NCBI GenBank assembly: GCA_003151115.1
Contig: PLWS01000005.1
Location: forward strand, 62,001-126,000
Length of the DNA: 64,000 bases
Direction: 5' to 3'
Origin: Vulcanimicrobiota bacterium
GTDB lineage: Bacteria > Vulcanimicrobiota > Vulcanimicrobiia > Vulcanimicrobiales > Vulcanimicrobiaceae
Positions 11,104 through 20,021 of the stretch are shown here, piece by piece. The notes beneath the pieces were generated by a model, which was given only the letters and a program-made list of their open reading frames with translations, had not been told where the DNA came from and did not search any database. How positions within the stretch are numbered: the first letter of the stretch is position 1; the number at the start of each line of letters is the position of its first letter. The translations under genes were made by a program, and so were the position numbers.

Positions 11104-11110
11104 TCGTCCG

Positions 11111-11578
11111 ATGGATCCGTCCAAGCGGTTCGCTACGATCGTGATGGCGCTGGGCATCGTCGTGCTCGTTTGTGCGATCCTCATCGGCGAGCGCGCGGGC
11201 GATCGTGCCATCGGCCAGGTCACCGAAAAGCGCTTGGAGAGCGTCGCGCCGATTTCCGTTGCGCCGGCGGCGCCGGACGCCACCGTGGCGCCCTACGGGC
11301 CCGATTGGAAGCGCACCGACGTCATGGCTGCCGCGCCCGACCCTGGCTTCCCCGACCCGCGCGTGCCGCCCGCATTGCCGCCCCCGCCGACGCCCATTCC
11401 GCGCTTCACGCCGCCGCCGTTCGCGGCGCCTACCGGTGCGCCGGCTGCGAAGGCCACGCCGAACCTGAGCCTCCCGATTTGGCGGCGAAGCCAGCCGCTG
11501 CCGACGGGCGCGCCCGCGTCCGCCGCACCTGCGACGCCGGCCGGTTCTCCGCAACCGGAGCAAACGACTCAGCCTTAG
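11111..11578 (+). CDS. Membrane-anchored Ala/Pro-rich protein
   Basis: A 155-residue protein with one N-terminal hydrophobic helix (about residues 8-27) and a long low-complexity tail rich in Pro, Ala and Thr (runs such as [12 protein letters not shown]). This is a signal-anchor or uncleaved signal followed by an extended periplasmic segment. I do not recognise a family. It starts 7 bases after the glycosidase stop; an in-frame ATG at 11096 would overlap it. The next gene is pdxS, with a 23-base gap containing a ribosome-binding site. Confidence 0.65.
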
Positions 11579-11601
11579 AAGATATACCAGGGAGTTTTTT
11601 T

Positions 11602-12489
11602 ATGGCCGAAACCGGCACCATCACCGTTAAACGCGGACTAGCCCAGATGCTCAAAGGCGGCGTCATCATGGACGTCGTCACGCCCGAACACGCCGTTATC
11701 GCGCAAGAAGCCGGCGCCGTCGCCGTGATGGCCCTCGAACGAATTCCGGCCGATATTCGCGCGGCCGGCGGCGTCGCGAGGATGAGCAATCTCGAACTCG
11801 TGCGTTCGATCATGGACGCCGTGACGATTCCGGTTATGGCCAAATGCCGCATCGGCCACTTCGCCGAAGCGCAGGCGCTGCAGCAAATCGGCATCGATTT
11901 CATCGACGAATCCGAAGTGCTTACGCCCGCCGACGAGCAGTACCACGTCGACAAGAATCCGTTCACGACGCCGTTCGTCTGCGGTGCGCGCAACTTGGGC
12001 GAAGCGCTGCGCCGGATCAACGAAGGCGCCGCCATGATTCGCAGCAAGGGCGAAGCCGGCAGCGGAAACATCGTCGAAGCCGTGCGTCACATGCGCGCGA
12101 TTACCGGGTCGATTAAAGCGCTCGCGCGCACGAAAGATCTCAAAGCGCAAGCGCGCGAGATGCGCGTGCCGGTCAAACTCGTGAAAGAGGTTGCCGAGGC
12201 CGGAAAACTTCCGGTCGTGCTGTTCTGTGCGGGCGGCGTCTCGACGCCGGCCGATGCGTCTCTCATGATGCAGCTCGGCGCCGAAGGCATCTTCGTCGGG
12301 AGCGGCATCTTCAAGTCGAACAACCCGCGCTTGTTTGCCAAAGCCATCGTTGCCGCGACGACGCATTTCGACGATCCGAAAGTCATCGTCGAAGCCAGCC
12401 TCTCGCTGGGCAAAGACAGTCGCGCGATGGAAGGGCTGGATTTGCGCAAGATTCCCGAGTCGGAGCTGCTCGCGCCCCGCGGAAACTAA
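11602..12489 (+). CDS. pdxS: Pyridoxal 5'-phosphate synthase lyase subunit PdxS
   Basis: A 295-residue PdxS (Pdx1, SnzP) of normal length. [11 protein letters not shown] (51-61) and Lys81 in VMAKCRIGH are the family's active-site elements; Lys81 is the residue that forms the imine with ribose 5-phosphate, and GEAGSGN around 160 is the phosphate loop. With PdxT it makes pyridoxal phosphate directly from ribose 5-phosphate, glyceraldehyde 3-phosphate and glutamine. pdxT follows with no gap. A Shine-Dalgarno (GGGAG) precedes the ATG by about 8 bases. Confidence 0.97.
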
Positions 12490-13089
12490 ATGCGCATTGG
12501 CGTGCTCGCGCTTCAAGGCGACGTCGTCGAGCACCTGAGCGCGCTGGAAGAATCCGGCGTCGATGCAATCCCCGTCAAAACTCCGGAAGAGCTTGCGAGC
12601 GTAGACGGCCTGGTAATTCCGGGCGGCGAGTCAACCACGGTGATGAAGCTCCTCGATCGATTCGAATTGGCCGAACCGGTGATTGCAAGAACGCGCGAAG
12701 GCATGCCGCTGTGGGGCACGTGCATGGGCATGATCGTCGTGGCGCGCGACGTGACGGGCACGCAGCAGCCGACGCTTGGATTGATGGACATCTCTGTGCG
12801 GCGCAACGCCTTCGGGCGGCAAAACGAATCCGCCGAAGTATCCCTGCCGATTCCCGCGCTGGGCGGCAAAGATTTCCCGGCCGTTTTCATTCGTGCGCCG
12901 TGGGTCGAGCGCGCCGGGCAAGCCGTAGAAGTATTGGCCGAACGCGACGGCCGCGCGGTCATGGTCCGTCAAGGAAATATGCTGGCAACGTCGTTCCACC
13001 CCGAATTGAGCGGCGATCGGCGGGTGCACGAGTATTTCATGCGCATGGTGCGCGATGCGCCTGTAGGGAAGCGCCGCAAAATCGCTTAA
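12490..13089 (+). CDS. pdxT: Pyridoxal 5'-phosphate synthase glutaminase subunit PdxT
   Basis: A 199-residue class I glutaminase. GGESTT (45-50) is the PdxT signature, the nucleophile is Cys78 in WGTCMGM, and the His-Glu pair is His170/Glu172 in SFHPEL. It supplies ammonia to PdxS, with which it is adjacent stop-to-start (TAA then ATG). Having PdxST implies the deoxyxylulose-independent vitamin B6 route. PLP-dependent enzymes nearby include the decarboxylase at 14363. Confidence 0.96.
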   Translation: MRIGVLALQGDVVEHLSALEESGVDAIPVKTPEELASVDGLVIPGGESTTVMKLLDRFELAEPVIARTREGMPLWGTCMGMIVVARDVTGTQQPTLGLMDISVRRNAFGRQNESAEVSLPIPALGGKDFPAVFIRAPWVERAGQAVEVLAERDGRAVMVRQGNMLATSFHPELSGDRRVHEYFMRMVRDAPVGKRRKIA

Positions 13090-13110: not shown

Positions 13111-13641
13111 GTGACCGACGTATTGGTGCTGAACTTCACCTACGAAGCGCTGAATATTACCAGCTTTCAGCGCGCGGTGAAGCTGTTGTTTGCGGGGAAG
13201 GCCGAGCTACTGCACGGCCGCGAGCGCATCATTGCATCGACGTCGTTCGAAATGCGGATGCCGTCGGTGATTCGCATGCTCTACTACATCCGCCGGCCGA
13301 TGCAAAAAGTCGCGCTGACCAAGAAGAACATCCTCATTCGCGACGACCACTCGTGCCAGTATTGCGGATTGCGGGGGGACCGCCTAATGACGGTCGACCA
13401 CGTGATCCCGCGAAGTAAGGGCGGCCCGTCAACGTGGGAAAACCTCGTCTGCGCCTGCATGCGCTGCAACAACCGCAAGAACAACCGCTCGCCGCACGAC
13501 GCGAACATGTCGCTCAAACGCAAGCCGCGGCAGCCCAAGTACATTCCGTGGATCCAAATCAAACGGAACACACTGCCCGACGAGTGGGGCAAGTTTCTCT
13601 TCCTTTACAACGTTTCGATCGACGAGCGAATCGAAGCCTAG
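13111..13641 (+). CDS. HNH endonuclease family protein
   Basis: A 176-residue HNH protein of the type common in Cyanobacteria and other Terrabacteria. Two CxxC pairs (CQYC 82-85 and CMRC 116-119) bind a structural zinc, and VDHVIPRSKGG (95-105) holds the catalytic Asp-His, with NNRK following. The N-terminal 75 residues (VLNFTYEALNI...) are the typical accompanying domain. I choose GTG 13111: the GGAGG box at 13101-13105 is 5 bases from it but only 2 from an in-frame GTG at 13108. Its cellular role is not established; it stands alone and does not look like part of a restriction system. Confidence 0.85.
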   Translation: MTDVLVLNFTYEALNITSFQRAVKLLFAGKAELLHGRERIIASTSFEMRMPSVIRMLYYIRRPMQKVALTKKNILIRDDHSCQYCGLRGDRLMTVDHVIPRSKGGPSTWENLVCACMRCNNRKNNRSPHDANMSLKRKPRQPKYIPWIQIKRNTLPDEWGKFLFLYNVSIDERIEA

Positions 13642-13645
13642 TCCG

Positions 13646-14215
13646 GTGCGCCCGTTGCTGCCCGCGGCGTTCTTCGCCGCGATTCTGCTATGTGCGTCCG
13701 GCTGCGCCCATTCACGTTGGTCTGCGAAAACGCTCGCAGACGGCGTTCCGATTGCGGCGTCTCCGGTCGTTGGGACTGTGGTGGAACTTCGAGCGCTGCC
13801 CCGGCCGCAGGGCGTCGATGCCTTCAACGCGACCCGCGTTTCGCAAGAGCGCGTAGTCTACCGGTTGCGCGCGGTGCTCTTACGTTTCACGCTGGCAAGC
13901 GATGGCGACATTCACCTCGCGATCGCCCAACCCGGCGAGCCGGCTGCCACCGTGATCGCCGAAATTCCGGATCCCGCTCGCATGACGGGCGCGCCGGATC
14001 GTTATCGCAATCAGGTAACGCAGGCGCGGCGCGGATTCATTCAGACGTTCGGGACGCCGACCAATGTCTGGAAAGAGGTCGATCGCGCAGTTGTGCTGAC
14101 CGGGCCGATCTTTTATGACTACCGGCACGGGCAAGTCGGTGGCAAGTTCGCGGGAGCCGAGAGCGGAATCGAGATTCATCCGGTCCTGAGCATCGCTCCG
14201 GCAGGGAAAACGTAA
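13646..14215 (+). CDS. Putative lipoprotein, unknown function
   Basis: A 189-residue protein beginning with a hydrophobic signal and a lipobox CASGC (lipidated Cys20). The mature part has beta-rich segments (VVGTVVELRALP, YRLRAVLLRFTLAS) and the phrase GRYRNQVTQARRGF-like middle; I do not recognise a family. It starts at GTG 13646, 4 bases after the HNH gene stop. The terminal IEIHPVLSIAP resembles the end of DNA/RNA-binding secreted domains seen in other secreted proteins, but this is only an impression. Confidence 0.6.
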   Translation: MRPLLPAAFFAAILLCASGCAHSRWSAKTLADGVPIAASPVVGTVVELRALPRPQGVDAFNATRVSQERVVYRLRAVLLRFTLASDGDIHLAIAQPGEPAATVIAEIPDPARMTGAPDRYRNQVTQARRGFIQTFGTPTNVWKEVDRAVVLTGPIFYDYRHGQVGGKFAGAESGIEIHPVLSIAPAGKT

Positions 14216-15914: not shown

Positions 15915-17444
15915 TTGGCCGTTAAAGCCGAATCCATGGCTCCTAACTGGGAGCTGACGCAACTCCTCGATATCTTCCCTCTCCCTATACGGCAATCGCT
16001 CGTACGCCTGCCCAACCTCGAGGATATGATCGAGGTTGTGCTCGACCTCGGGCGGCCGCCCGAAGCGCGCTTCGAAAACGACTTCGTCTATCTTTCGGAG
16101 ACGCCGGTCTCGGCCGAAGACATCGCGCAAGTCTGCTCGCGCCTCTCGGCGTTCGGAGCCGATAACCGCGCGGGCATCGAGCAAACGCTGCACCGCATCA
16201 GCGCGATTCGCAACCGGACGGGAAAGATCGTCGGCCTTACGTGCCGCGTCGGACGCGCGGTCTACGGGACGATCGACATCATTCTGGATATCTTGCGGAG
16301 CGGCAAATCTATTTGCTTGCTGGGGCGCCCCGGCGTCGGCAAGACGACGATGCTGCGCGAGTGTGCGCGCATGCTCTCTGAAGATCGCAAGCGCGTCGTG
16401 ATCGTGGATACGTCCAATGAAATCGCCGGCGACAGCGACATTCCGCATCCCGGCATCGGCACGGCGCGCCGCATGCAAGTGACCGATCCGGCGCTGCAGC
16501 ACGCTGTCATGATCGAAGCGGTCGAAAACCACATGCCGCAGGTCATCGTCATCGATGAGATCGGGACTGCGGCCGAGGCGGAAGCCGCGCGAACGATCGC
16601 CGAGCGCGGCGTCGAGCTGATCGGAACGGCGCACGGCCAGACGCTGGAAAATCTGCTGATGAACCCGACGCTGACCGACCTGATGGGCGGCATCGGCGCG
16701 GTGACCCTCTCGGATGAGGAAGCGCGCCGCCGCGGGACCCGCAAGACCGTTCTGGAGCGCAAGGCGCCGCCGACCTTCGAGGTGGTCGTGGAGATCCACG
16801 ACCGCGACCGGCTGGCGATTCACAAGAACGTCGGCGAAGTCGTCGATGCACTGCTGCGCGGCTACCAGCCGCAGCCGGAGATCCGCCAGCGCACCCCCGC
16901 GGGCGTTTCCATCGTGCAGGAAGCCGACACCGAGTCCATGCCGCACATCGCGATGGCGCCGAGCTACGACGTGCCTGAAGAAGACCGCGAGAAACCGCTG
17001 ATGATCTTCCCGTATGGCGTTTCGCGCAACAAGATCGAGCGCGCGGTTCACAACCTGCGCGTTAACGCGTCCATTGCCCGCAAATGGGACGATGCCGACG
17101 TGGTTCTCACCTTGAAGGCCTTAGAGCGCAAAGAGCAGCCGCGGCTCAAGCAGATCGCGTCGGAAAACATTCCGATCTACGCGATCAAGACCAATACCAC
17201 GACGCAGATTCAAAGCTGCCTCAAAGACGTCTTCAATCTGCCCTCGCTTGACAACGAAGAGATCGCTTTGCGGGAAGCCGAGGAGGCGGTCTATCAGGTG
17301 CTGCTCGACAGCCAGGCCATCGAACTTTCACCGCAGACCTCCTACCTGCGCCGGATGCAGCACCAAGTCGCCGAGAAGTACCGGCTGCAGTCGCGCAGCA
17401 CGGGCCTAGAGCCCAATCGAAGGGTGCGGATATTTAAAGCCTAA
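15915..17444 (+). CDS. R3H domain ATPase (SpoIIIAA/Ycf45-like)
   Basis: A 509-residue protein with an AAA/RecA-like ATPase in the N-terminal half: Walker A GRPGVGKTT (137-145), Walker B IVIDEIG (211-217), and the SpoIIIAA-like stretches DTSNEIAGD and GTAHGQTLENLL. The C-terminal ~70 residues (YRLQSRSTGLEPNRRVRI) form an R3H single-stranded nucleic-acid-binding domain. This architecture is widespread in Cyanobacteria (Ycf45) and some Firmicutes; the role is poorly known. I use TTG 15915, 7 bases after GAGGA (15903-15907); ATG 15936 is an alternative. Confidence 0.88.
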   Translation: MAVKAESMAPNWELTQLLDIFPLPIRQSLVRLPNLEDMIEVVLDLGRPPEARFENDFVYLSETPVSAEDIAQVCSRLSAFGADNRAGIEQTLHRISAIRNRTGKIVGLTCRVGRAVYGTIDIILDILRSGKSICLLGRPGVGKTTMLRECARMLSEDRKRVVIVDTSNEIAGDSDIPHPGIGTARRMQVTDPALQHAVMIEAVENHMPQVIVIDEIGTAAEAEAARTIAERGVELIGTAHGQTLENLLMNPTLTDLMGGIGAVTLSDEEARRRGTRKTVLERKAPPTFEVVVEIHDRDRLAIHKNVGEVVDALLRGYQPQPEIRQRTPAGVSIVQEADTESMPHIAMAPSYDVPEEDREKPLMIFPYGVSRNKIERAVHNLRVNASIARKWDDADVVLTLKALERKEQPRLKQIASENIPIYAIKTNTTTQIQSCLKDVFNLPSLDNEEIALREAEEAVYQVLLDSQAIELSPQTSYLRRMQHQVAEKYRLQSRSTGLEPNRRVRIFKA

Positions 17445-17455
17445 AGTACCCCGCC

Positions 17456-18424
17456 ATGCAAAAAATCGTTTGTCTCGCGAGTATTTTGGTGTTGCTCGGG
17501 GCTGCTCCGAAACCGGCGAAAACCTCGCTCGGAACCTTCGTCCGCTCCATCCTGCCGATGGCCGGCCAAAACTTCGCCCCCATCCGCGGCGCCAAGTATG
17601 ACTCCGATACGTACTATGCCGAGTACAGGCCGCTGCCGAAAGCCCTCTGCACGGCGTGCAAGATTTACGATCAATACGCCCGTGGGAAATATCCCGAGAA
17701 CTGGTACGTCAGCGACCGGTGGAACACGACGTGGACGATGCCGAAAACCGAAGCCTACATCAGGGCGCAGTTGGGTCCGGTGCTTTCACCGTTTTCGCTC
17801 CACCGCACGGTGAGCTATTCCTATCCGACGCTCACTTGGCGCAATCCGGCCAACGGCCAGTGGGTTGTGATAGACGTCTATAAGGATTCTTTCAACGTTC
17901 AAGTAGGGCGCGATCTTGCCAAGCCGGTCCACGTGCTGAATCCTCCGAGCAAGATCCAGTTGCAGCAGCTGGCCAGCGGTGTTTCGAATCTCATGCGCCT
18001 CGCGCTTCCCGACGCGGTGAACAATTTTGCTTCGTTGCGCGCGCCCGGGAAGAAGAAAGACATCCTGGGCGAGGATAGCTATCCGCTTAACGCGTCGTTT
18101 GGATCGATGTTCGGCAAATGCGACGTCTCCAATGTTACAAACGGTTACGGTTTTAAGGACTTCCAGCCGAAATGGGTGCTGAACTGTTACACTATTTCGA
18201 TGGCCGGCACGAAGGCGGGGCTCGAAGAACCGCTGCGCGCGGCCATCTACGACGCGATTCCGAGCGGATATACGTCGGTGACGGACGCGGCGGCGCTCCT
18301 ATTGGACGACTACCGTTGGGATAACAGCGACCTGGCGGTTTCGGTCAATCTCGGTTCGAGCGAGAATAAGGGCGTCGTCAGTTTCAACATCTCCATCTTT
18401 CACTTCTTGCCCAAGCCGACGTAG
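17456..18424 (+). CDS. Secreted protein, unknown function
   Basis: A 322-residue protein with a short N-terminal signal (MQKIVCLASILVLLGAAP). The mature part is rich in aromatic residues (DSDTYYAEYRPLP, ENWYVSDRWNTTW) and has a possible disulphide pair early (CTAC). I do not recognise a family. It sits inside the decarboxylase-tmk-holB run, 11 bases after the R3H ATPase. The tmk gene follows in the same frame just beyond the stop codon, so readthrough of this TAG would fuse the two. Confidence 0.65.
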   Translation: MQKIVCLASILVLLGAAPKPAKTSLGTFVRSILPMAGQNFAPIRGAKYDSDTYYAEYRPLPKALCTACKIYDQYARGKYPENWYVSDRWNTTWTMPKTEAYIRAQLGPVLSPFSLHRTVSYSYPTLTWRNPANGQWVVIDVYKDSFNVQVGRDLAKPVHVLNPPSKIQLQQLASGVSNLMRLALPDAVNNFASLRAPGKKKDILGEDSYPLNASFGSMFGKCDVSNVTNGYGFKDFQPKWVLNCYTISMAGTKAGLEEPLRAAIYDAIPSGYTSVTDAAALLLDDYRWDNSDLAVSVNLGSSENKGVVSFNISIFHFLPKPT

Positions 18425-18427
18425 CCA

Positions 18428-19033
18428 CTGTTTATTTCATTCGAAGGCATTGAAGGCAGCGGCAAGACGACGCTCCTTTCGGCCGTTGAGGCGGAGCTCC
18501 GCAACGAAGGGCGCGACCTTCTGGTGACGCGCGAGCCGGGGGGCACGCCGGCCGGCGACGCCATTCGGCGCGTTTTCATCGAACCGCATTTCGAGTTGAG
18601 CGCGATGGCCGAGACGTTACTCGTTAATGCATCCCGCGCGCAGCTCGTTACCGATGTTATCCGGCCGGCGCTCGAGGCAGGCACGCTCGTATTGTGCGAC
18701 CGCTACGTCGATTCTTCGCTCGCGTATCAGGCCTACGGTCGCGAACAAAAGCTCGAAGCGGTGCGCGCGATTTGCAATGCTGCGACGGGCGGATTAATGC
18801 CCGGCTTGACGCTGCTTATCGACGTTTCGTATGAAACCTCGCGCGAGCGCCTGCACCGGCGCGGCAATGTCGACGACCGCCTGGAAAAAATGGAGGAAGC
18901 GTTTCACCGGCGCGCGCGCGCCGGGTTCTTGGAACTCGCGAAGAGCGATTCGCGCATCGTCGTGATCGACGGCGAGCAGGACGAAGCGCAGGTGTTTAAA
19001 GCGGCGATGGAAGCGATCCGGCGTGCTCTTTGA
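18428..19033 (+). CDS. tmk: Thymidylate kinase, apparent CTG start
   Basis: A 201-residue dTMP kinase (dTMP to dTDP). The P-loop EGIEGSGKTT (6-15), TREPGGTPAG and CDRYVDSSLAYQ are all in place. The homology begins LFISFEGIEG immediately after the TAG stop of the upstream gene (18422-18424). In that frame there is no ATG, GTG or TTG before the P-loop; the only start-like codon is CTG 18428 (ATT 18434 is a weaker option). No Shine-Dalgarno is evident. Either CTG is used, perhaps by re-initiation, or the sequence has an error. The stop overlaps holB. Confidence 0.9.
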   Translation: MFISFEGIEGSGKTTLLSAVEAELRNEGRDLLVTREPGGTPAGDAIRRVFIEPHFELSAMAETLLVNASRAQLVTDVIRPALEAGTLVLCDRYVDSSLAYQAYGREQKLEAVRAICNAATGGLMPGLTLLIDVSYETSRERLHRRGNVDDRLEKMEEAFHRRARAGFLELAKSDSRIVVIDGEQDEAQVFKAAMEAIRRAL

Positions 19034-20021
19034 GGTTGTTGGGGCGGAAGGCCCCAAGCGTTTCTTCGGACGGCTCACCAAAGAGACGATCGCGCACGCC
19101 TACCTTTTTACCGGCCCGCCTGGAGTGGGAAAGAAAACGTTTGCGCGGCGGTTGGCGCAGTCGCTGCTCTGCGAAGCGCCCAAAGAACACGTGCTCGGCT
19201 ACGACGGCACGTGCACTTCGTGCAAACTGATTGGCAAGGAAGAGACGCGTCACCCCGATCTCTTGGAGAGCGTCGGCGCGCTGAAGATCGGCGAAGCCGA
19301 CGAGCCGATGGCTTTTCACGAAGCCGATGCGATCACGTCGCGCGATCTGGTCCGCCAACTCTCCCTGCAATCCTATTCCGGCGGCTTCCGCATCTTCGTG
19401 CTGGGCGATATCGACTTTGCCTCGCCGGCCGCGGCCAACGCGCTGCTAAAGTTCTTCGAAGAGCCGCCGCCGCGCGTCGTCCTGCTTCTGACAACGGCAA
19501 CGCCGTCGCGATTGCTTTCGACCATTCGCTCGCGTCTGGTCGAGGTTCGCTTTCCGTCGCTGCGGCAATCCGAAGTCATCGAGATCTTGCGCGAGAAAGG
19601 CTACGATCAAAAAAAAGCGCAACTCGGCGCTGCGCTTTCGCAAGGTTCGGCGACGCGCGCTCTCGCGGCGCTCTCCGACGACGAGGAACAGCTGCGCGAC
19701 CAAGTTGCGGACTGGTTTTTCGAGGTCGTAAAGGGCGCGACGCCGGAAGAAGGTTGGGCGTCGCGCGAAACCCTCGATGAAGGGTTGGAAATCGTCAAAA
19801 CGTTGATGCGCGATTGGATTGTGTTACGTTCCGAAGGTGTTGCGGCAGGCTCCGCTCTTGCGGTTGACTATGAGCCGAAGCTTAAGAAACTCCCGAAGAT
19901 CGATGCGGCGTCAGCCATCGGTGCGCTCACCAAGATCGGCGAAGCGCAAAGGCTGGCAGGCACAAACGTTTCACCGGCGCTTGTGAGCGAGTTTGTCCGG
20001 ATGTCGTTACCGACCCCATAA
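19023..20021 (+). CDS. holB: DNA polymerase III subunit delta'
   Basis: A 332-residue clamp-loader ATPase-fold subunit. Walker A-like GPPGVGKK (31-38), Cys residues C50, C64 and C67 in the zinc-module position, and NALLKFFEEPPPR with IRSRLVEVRF follow the DnaX/HolB pattern. It helps load the beta clamp at the replication fork. GTG 19023 overlaps tmk by 11 bases. The tmk-holB pair is conserved in many Firmicutes. A hairpin repeat begins one base after the stop. Confidence 0.9.
   Translation: MLFEVVGAEGPKRFFGRLTKETIAHAYLFTGPPGVGKKTFARRLAQSLLCEAPKEHVLGYDGTCTSCKLIGKEETRHPDLLESVGALKIGEADEPMAFHEADAITSRDLVRQLSLQSYSGGFRIFVLGDIDFASPAAANALLKFFEEPPPRVVLLLTTATPSRLLSTIRSRLVEVRFPSLRQSEVIEILREKGYDQKKAQLGAALSQGSATRALAALSDDEEQLRDQVADWFFEVVKGATPEEGWASRETLDEGLEIVKTLMRDWIVLRSEGVAAGSALAVDYEPKLKKLPKIDAASAIGALTKIGEAQRLAGTNVSPALVSEFVRMSLPTP

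Follow-up and report, generated by a model that had tools for sequence, protein, structure and literature searches.

Organization of the tmk locus

We analyzed a window of 64,000 nt from a Vulcanimicrobiota bacterium (contig PLWS01000005.1, positions 62,001 to 126,000, forward strand), in which the essential gene tmk lies downstream of an R3H/AAA-ATPase gene and of a gene for a predicted secreted protein, and directly upstream of holB (Table 1). The tmk product scores 161.6 bits against TIGR00041 (curated cut-off 83.25 bits), which places it among the dTMP kinases, and 147 bits against PF02223; it is the single tmk match in the source genome, which is 98.5% complete. The product of the gene in front of it is predicted to be secreted on the basis of its hydrophobic N terminus. 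The TTG given as start of the R3H/AAA gene is merely the first mechanical start of that frame. At the downstream end holB begins, with its GTG, within the final tmk codons, so that the two genes share 11 nt (19023-19033).

Table 1. Features at the tmk locus (positions are those of the window)
Feature	Position	Strand	Remarks
R3H/AAA-ATPase gene (Spore_III_AA-like)	15915..17444	+	the gene that usually precedes tmk in this family
Predicted secreted-protein gene, without Pfam family	17456..18424	+	between R3H gene and tmk
TAG, stop of the secreted-protein gene	18422..18424	+	in the tmk frame, 3 nt ahead of the CTG
tmk, dTMP kinase	18428..19033	+	201 codons plus TGA counted from the CTG; profile matches, solved relatives
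CTG, proposed tmk start codon	18428..18430	+	
ATT, rival start	18434..18436	+	sole other near-cognate codon ahead of the P-loop motif EGIEGSGKTT, besides an ATT within the motif
GTG, first canonical in-frame start	18524..18526	+	use would remove the P-loop; likely site of a wrong automatic call
holB, DNA polymerase III delta-prime type gene	19023..20021	+	GTG start

The junction between the secreted-protein gene and tmk reads ACG TAG CCA CTG TTT ATT TCA TTC GAA, and after the CTG the tmk frame encodes FISFEGIEGSGKTT. An earlier sequence-only reading of this DNA had claimed that the TAG ends the upstream gene in the frame of tmk, that neither ATG, GTG nor TTG fits as a tmk start and that no Shine-Dalgarno sequence is evident. 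All three observations held: the letters and the frame are as described, with 202 open codons past the TAG, the first canonical start codon is the GTG at codon 33 of this frame and thus past the P-loop, and inspection by eye of the 30 nt before the CTG revealed no Shine-Dalgarno sequence in any of the four genomes with this arrangement.

Start codons of tmk in the genus

Next, we compared the junction among the genomes of the genus, in which the congeners carry the name Candidatus Eremiobacterota. A tmk gene is present in all seven of them. In four genomes (the source genome G000 as well as G068, G070 and G071) the start of tmk shows the order TAG-NNN-CTG, the spacer codon being CCA, CAA, CCG and CCG, respectively, and TTT follows the CTG; in the other three (G069, G072 and G073) a GTG is located at exactly the codon of the CTG. 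The letters are identical in three named public MAGs of the CTG genomes (Candidatus Eremiobacterota bin6B, bin6A and palsa_1493; L031-L033). Compared in pairs, the four CTG genes show third-position differences at 66 to 91 of the 201 codons (33 to 45%), 68 of the 201 codon columns are identical throughout, and the changes are mostly in the third position, as under purifying selection. Leucine occupies 23 columns in all four genes; seven of these columns keep one codon throughout, and the start column is the only one that is CTG throughout. In the alignment with solved thymidylate kinases the CTG residue corresponds to residue 1 of 3hjn, and the following phenylalanine to residue 2 of 2pbr and 1g3u. 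Two features of a conserved near-cognate start were observed, namely the lack of a usable canonical start and the retention of the rare start by relatives, while a Shine-Dalgarno sequence at proper spacing was found in none of the four genomes.

A tree of the R3H/AAA protein (68 rows, several of them partial, with the CTG rows filling just 35% of the columns) groups all four CTG rows as a single clade (98/85), with the GTG rows of G069 and G072 as sister group (99/91) and the GTG row G073 outside. As the CTG rows form one clade among GTG relatives, the switch went from GTG to CTG; since the CTG genomes number four and all belong to this clade, the conservation of the CTG counts as one event. 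The spacing from R3H stop to Tmk core differs as well, being about 985 nt in the CTG genomes versus 14, 14 and 20 nt in the GTG congeners. The secreted-protein gene adjoins tmk solely in the CTG clade (4/7 genomes of the genus). Relatives of this gene were found in 18 of 99 family genomes. Besides the four of the CTG type, these are 14 genomes in which the relative is located on a different contig from tmk or no tmk was found (G052, G037). No match to the gene was found anywhere in the three GTG congeners, of which G072 is just 56% complete. Judging from this distribution, we place the insertion of the gene between the R3H/AAA gene and tmk on the same branch as the switch from GTG to CTG.

The genome comparison establishes the lack of other starts, the CTG in four genomes, the GTG in their sisters and the polarity of the tree. 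We consider CTG 18428-18430 to be the real tmk start with a probability of about 0.85. This had been the first hypothesis of the sequence-only reading, and it is the best supported one, both by the GTG or CTG at one and the same codon in 3/7 and 4/7 genomes and by the structure alignment. The same reading had proposed to look for ATG in close relatives, and had regarded a canonical start there, together with a base error, as speaking against the CTG. Here the outcome was divided: congeners with a canonical codon at this place do exist, in the form of GTG, but the base error does not.

Alternative readings of the junction

We weighed three other readings of the junction. ATT and ATC are weak bacterial starts, and the codon at 18434-18436 is ATT, ATC, ATT and ATC in the four CTG genomes, so that translation could begin there and give (M)SFEGIEGSGKTT. 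Such a start would cut into the first beta strand, however, and the solved structures 3hjn, 2pbr and 1g3u all have the matching phenylalanine at residue 2. Moreover, the GTG congeners begin two codons earlier, and the four-way CTG, one of 23 leucine columns, would be left without explanation. We regard a start at this codon as improbable. The position of the TAG in the tmk frame, one codon ahead of the CTG in 4/4 genomes, would also fit readthrough, as had been suggested alternatively, which would yield a fusion of the secreted protein and Tmk. We consider this very unlikely, because RF1 is present (476 bits, cut-off 423) and an ARAGORN scan of the 43 tRNAs found in the source genome gave no CTA anticodon, one of the 43 having no assigned anticodon; neither a suppressor tRNA with this anticodon nor a loss of RF1 was thus found. 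In addition, a hydrophobic, signal-like N terminus would be senseless on a cytoplasmic enzyme, the GTG sisters have no secreted-protein gene in front of tmk, and a codon read as leucine in a fusion should show variation like that in the other 22 leucine columns.

That the assembly is wrong here, or that tmk is a pseudogene, is suggested by the metagenome-type assemblies and by nothing else. The same arrangement occurs in four genomes whose tmk genes differ at a third or more of their third positions, and we dismissed the assembly error, also raised in the sequence-only reading, because the CTG recurs in other assemblies amid different synonymous codons. The prevalence of third-position changes and the fact that this is the sole tmk of an almost complete genome argue against a pseudogene. 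Either possibility appears extremely remote to us.

Start codons of tmk and infC in the family

For better evaluation of the CTG we determined baselines in the family, among other bacteria and in the window. A tmk match was found in 88 of 99 family genomes. Counting one locus per genome, we could read the codon preceding the conserved phenylalanine at 87 of the 88 loci (L168 has no motif match): it is ATG in 37, GTG in 29, CTG in 4 and TTG in 3 frames (together 73/87), and another codon in 14. Among the best 80 of 504 relatives across all bacteria (78 loci, as L068 and L079 have no motif match), 76 of 79 tmk frames carry ATG, GTG or TTG within 25 codons, and the only three frames without such a codon are those of the three CTG congeners. 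Within the window, tmk has the most coding-like stretch before the first canonical start among 50 long ORFs selected by a mechanical filter (0.36), followed by three ORFs, possibly shadows, with 0.26, 0.25 and 0.20. Co-directional gene pairs without a canonical start at most 15 codons from the upstream stop made up 12 of 59 in 200 kb of G062 and 4 of 25 in the window. Non-canonical starts are thus not general in either stretch, and we rejected a general shift in start-codon use. Besides tmk, the pairs concerned in the window involve 11104-12486, 13406-14212 and 1228-1839. The first of these encodes PdxS and likely has an internal start, given that its match sets in only at residue 168-175 of the frame. 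For 13406-14212 no matching family was found, and at its start it seems to overlap another reading frame. We also observed in G062 (L194, about 12291-12657, minus strand) a frame beginning TGEIWTIAG..., presumably MazF-like, which directly follows an in-frame TAG and lacks a canonical start ahead of the conserved N terminus.

As a positive control for the detection of weak starts through comparison we used infC, which was found in 15/15 family genomes searched. In all 15 (L231-L245) the codon before A-R-P-L-R-[IV]-N, the apparent start of IF3, is ATA. It is usually preceded by a GGAG-type sequence, with L244 as an exception, and in L232, L236, L242 and L245 the stretch from the in-frame stop to the ATA is free of canonical starts. 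The infC gene of the family thus appears to start at ATA, which is of the known IF3-controlled type, and from its occurrence in 15/15 genomes it would follow that a weak start of the IF3 type is used elsewhere in the family. For S. aureus, AUA is reported as the infC start (PMC13009471).

A candidate GUA start of tmk in ten other family genomes

Regarding the 14 family loci with other codons more closely, together with a second tmk copy of G074 (L203) and the locus of G098 (counted above as TTG before the phenylalanine), we found a shared GTA junction at 11 loci in ten genomes: G004, G027, G029, G047, G058, G062, G063, G074 (twice), G097 and G098 (L123, L126, L129/L298, L142, L145, L146, L147, L160, L163, L167 and L203/L299). 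At these loci the R3H protein ends in G-[AV]-[SP]-A, and its stop codon overlaps a GTA in the tmk frame by 4 nt (GTAG or GTAA). The distances from the stop to the Tmk core are 20, 8, 32, 20, 5, 26, 5, 26, 26 and 8 nt at ten of the loci and 11 nt on contig C2 of G074; all 11 are 2 modulo 3, and the tmk frame therefore behaves as if translated from the stop on. The glycine codon, GGA in 7/11 and GGG in 4/11 loci, creates a GGRG 7 nt upstream of the GTA. GGA and GGG together make up 28.4% of the glycine codons in ten R3H frames of this group (L298 left out), and among 26 invariant glycine columns of the eight full-length R3H genes the GGRG column is the only one composed entirely of GGA or GGG. 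The final GCG of the R3H gene did not stand out significantly as a selected codon, 4 of 26 invariant alanine columns being GCG throughout.

At five of the loci (G058, G062, G029, G047 and G097) the frame contains no canonical start from its in-frame stop to the Tmk core, and on C2 of G074 none is found up to the contig end. In G063 and in the second G074 copy the nearest one is 137 and 133 codons upstream, respectively, and possible alternative starts are present in G027 (TTG at -16), G004 (GTG at -4) and G098 (TTG at -1). A further genome, G075, is organized alike, except that its overlap is a canonical GTGA. The overlap with GTA alone proves nothing, because 6 of 59 gene pairs in G062 have a GTA in this phase (-1) at the upstream stop; the tmk pair is the only one of these six without a canonical start nearby. 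A -1 frameshift from the R3H gene into tmk was rejected by the reasoning that the tRNA reading GCG would be unable to re-pair on CGC. Both the C2 and C56 contigs of G074 carry a full tmk copy of the GTA type after an R3H-type end, which may reflect a duplication or mixed strains.

The 11 loci seem to be candidates for a natural GUA start with a GGRG sequence, resembling the ordinary ATGA overlap. According to its authors in 2018, the sole demonstrated GUA start known to them was a laboratory recJ mutant of E. coli (PMC6200909). The GTA genomes are relatives of one another, and a single event may underlie the junction: in the tree, taken as unrooted, nine GTA rows fall to the same side of a branch. 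Whether weak-start control of tmk has arisen more than once in the family, in the CTG subclade and by way of a natural GUA start in ten genomes, is in our judgement evenly balanced.

Proposed route of initiation and implications

Based on these findings we propose that translation of tmk begins with fMet at CTG 18428-18430. A ribosome that has finished the secreted-protein gene at TAG 18422-18424 could start anew at the CTG after just 3 nt; the GTG present in the ancestor of the genus turned into CTG on the branch where the secreted-protein gene entered. With an ordinary initiator tRNA the CTG would be a weak start subject to IF3, that is, a deliberately or tolerably weak reinitiation start, and since it would be weak in this way, Tmk synthesis is probably low and dependent on upstream translation. 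Initiation at the CTG itself, the coupling and the control by IF3 are what we infer, and termination at the TAG followed by reinitiation at the CTG is the likely route. In all four CTG genomes 3 nt separate the TAG from the CTG, a spacing as short as in a termination-reinitiation pair; translational coupling is reported to require an overlap or very short gaps (PMC10666635). Reinitiation is described as being lowered by excess IF3, more so without a Shine-Dalgarno sequence (PMC2268962). The candidate initiator tRNA of the source genome, the choice of which is our own reading, looks ordinary in form, having a C at position 1, a CAT anticodon and a GGG/CCC anticodon stem. The anticodon and stem of this candidate speak against an altered initiator tRNA, and we rejected that possibility.

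Given how poorly CUG serves as a start in E. coli, it is surprising in an essential gene, unless aided by reinitiation. It is reported to account for 0.024% of bacterial starts and, in E. coli, to give 0.86% of the output of AUG (PMC11497404), and 1 of 5,080 ancestral GUG starts is reported to have turned into CUG (PMC5622118). Starts at CUG tend to be written off as noise of annotation; a CTG start whose origin can be placed on a tree, together with an accompanying insertion and in a gene that is essential and single-copy, would be a clean test case for weak starts and reinitiation. Standard gene callers would either miss tmk altogether or place its start at GTG 18524, which would cost the protein its P-loop. 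The predicted N-terminal peptides of the CTG-type Tmk are MFISFEGIEGSGK. If the GUA reading is true, the set of natural bacterial start codons would be wider, and weak tmk starts together with infC at ATA would, if true, link the dTTP supply to IF3.

Comparison with known systems

Searching the literature for thymidylate kinase with a CTG start codon, we found no work on the subject, judged by title, and for start codons of Eremiobacterota photosynthesis work only. One close likeness is infC with its AUU or AUA start, where a weak near-cognate start is retained across species, as in S. aureus and in the present family. However, infC usually has a GGAG-type sequence upstream, whereas the CTG of tmk has none, and infC is autoregulated, whereas no role of Tmk in initiation is known. 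In Streptomyces, sigR is likewise described as keeping a rare start throughout the genus, where 32 of 34 species have GTC and 2 have GTT, and as being repressed by IF3 (PMC5472188); it differs from tmk in codon and gene, in its extended Shine-Dalgarno sequence and in its experimental proof. Termination-reinitiation pairs share with tmk the 3-nt spacing of stop and start and the lack of a separate Shine-Dalgarno sequence, but the known pairs covered by these sources start canonically (PMC10666635, PMC2268962), while tmk would start at CTG. Annotated bacterial CUG starts, finally, are rare but known, at the frequency given above (PMC11497404). Compared to these, a whole clade keeps the CTG here, in an essential single-copy gene and with a dated switch from GTG to CTG. 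Taken together, the CTG of tmk adds to the CUG starts already known a further case that is unusually well dated.
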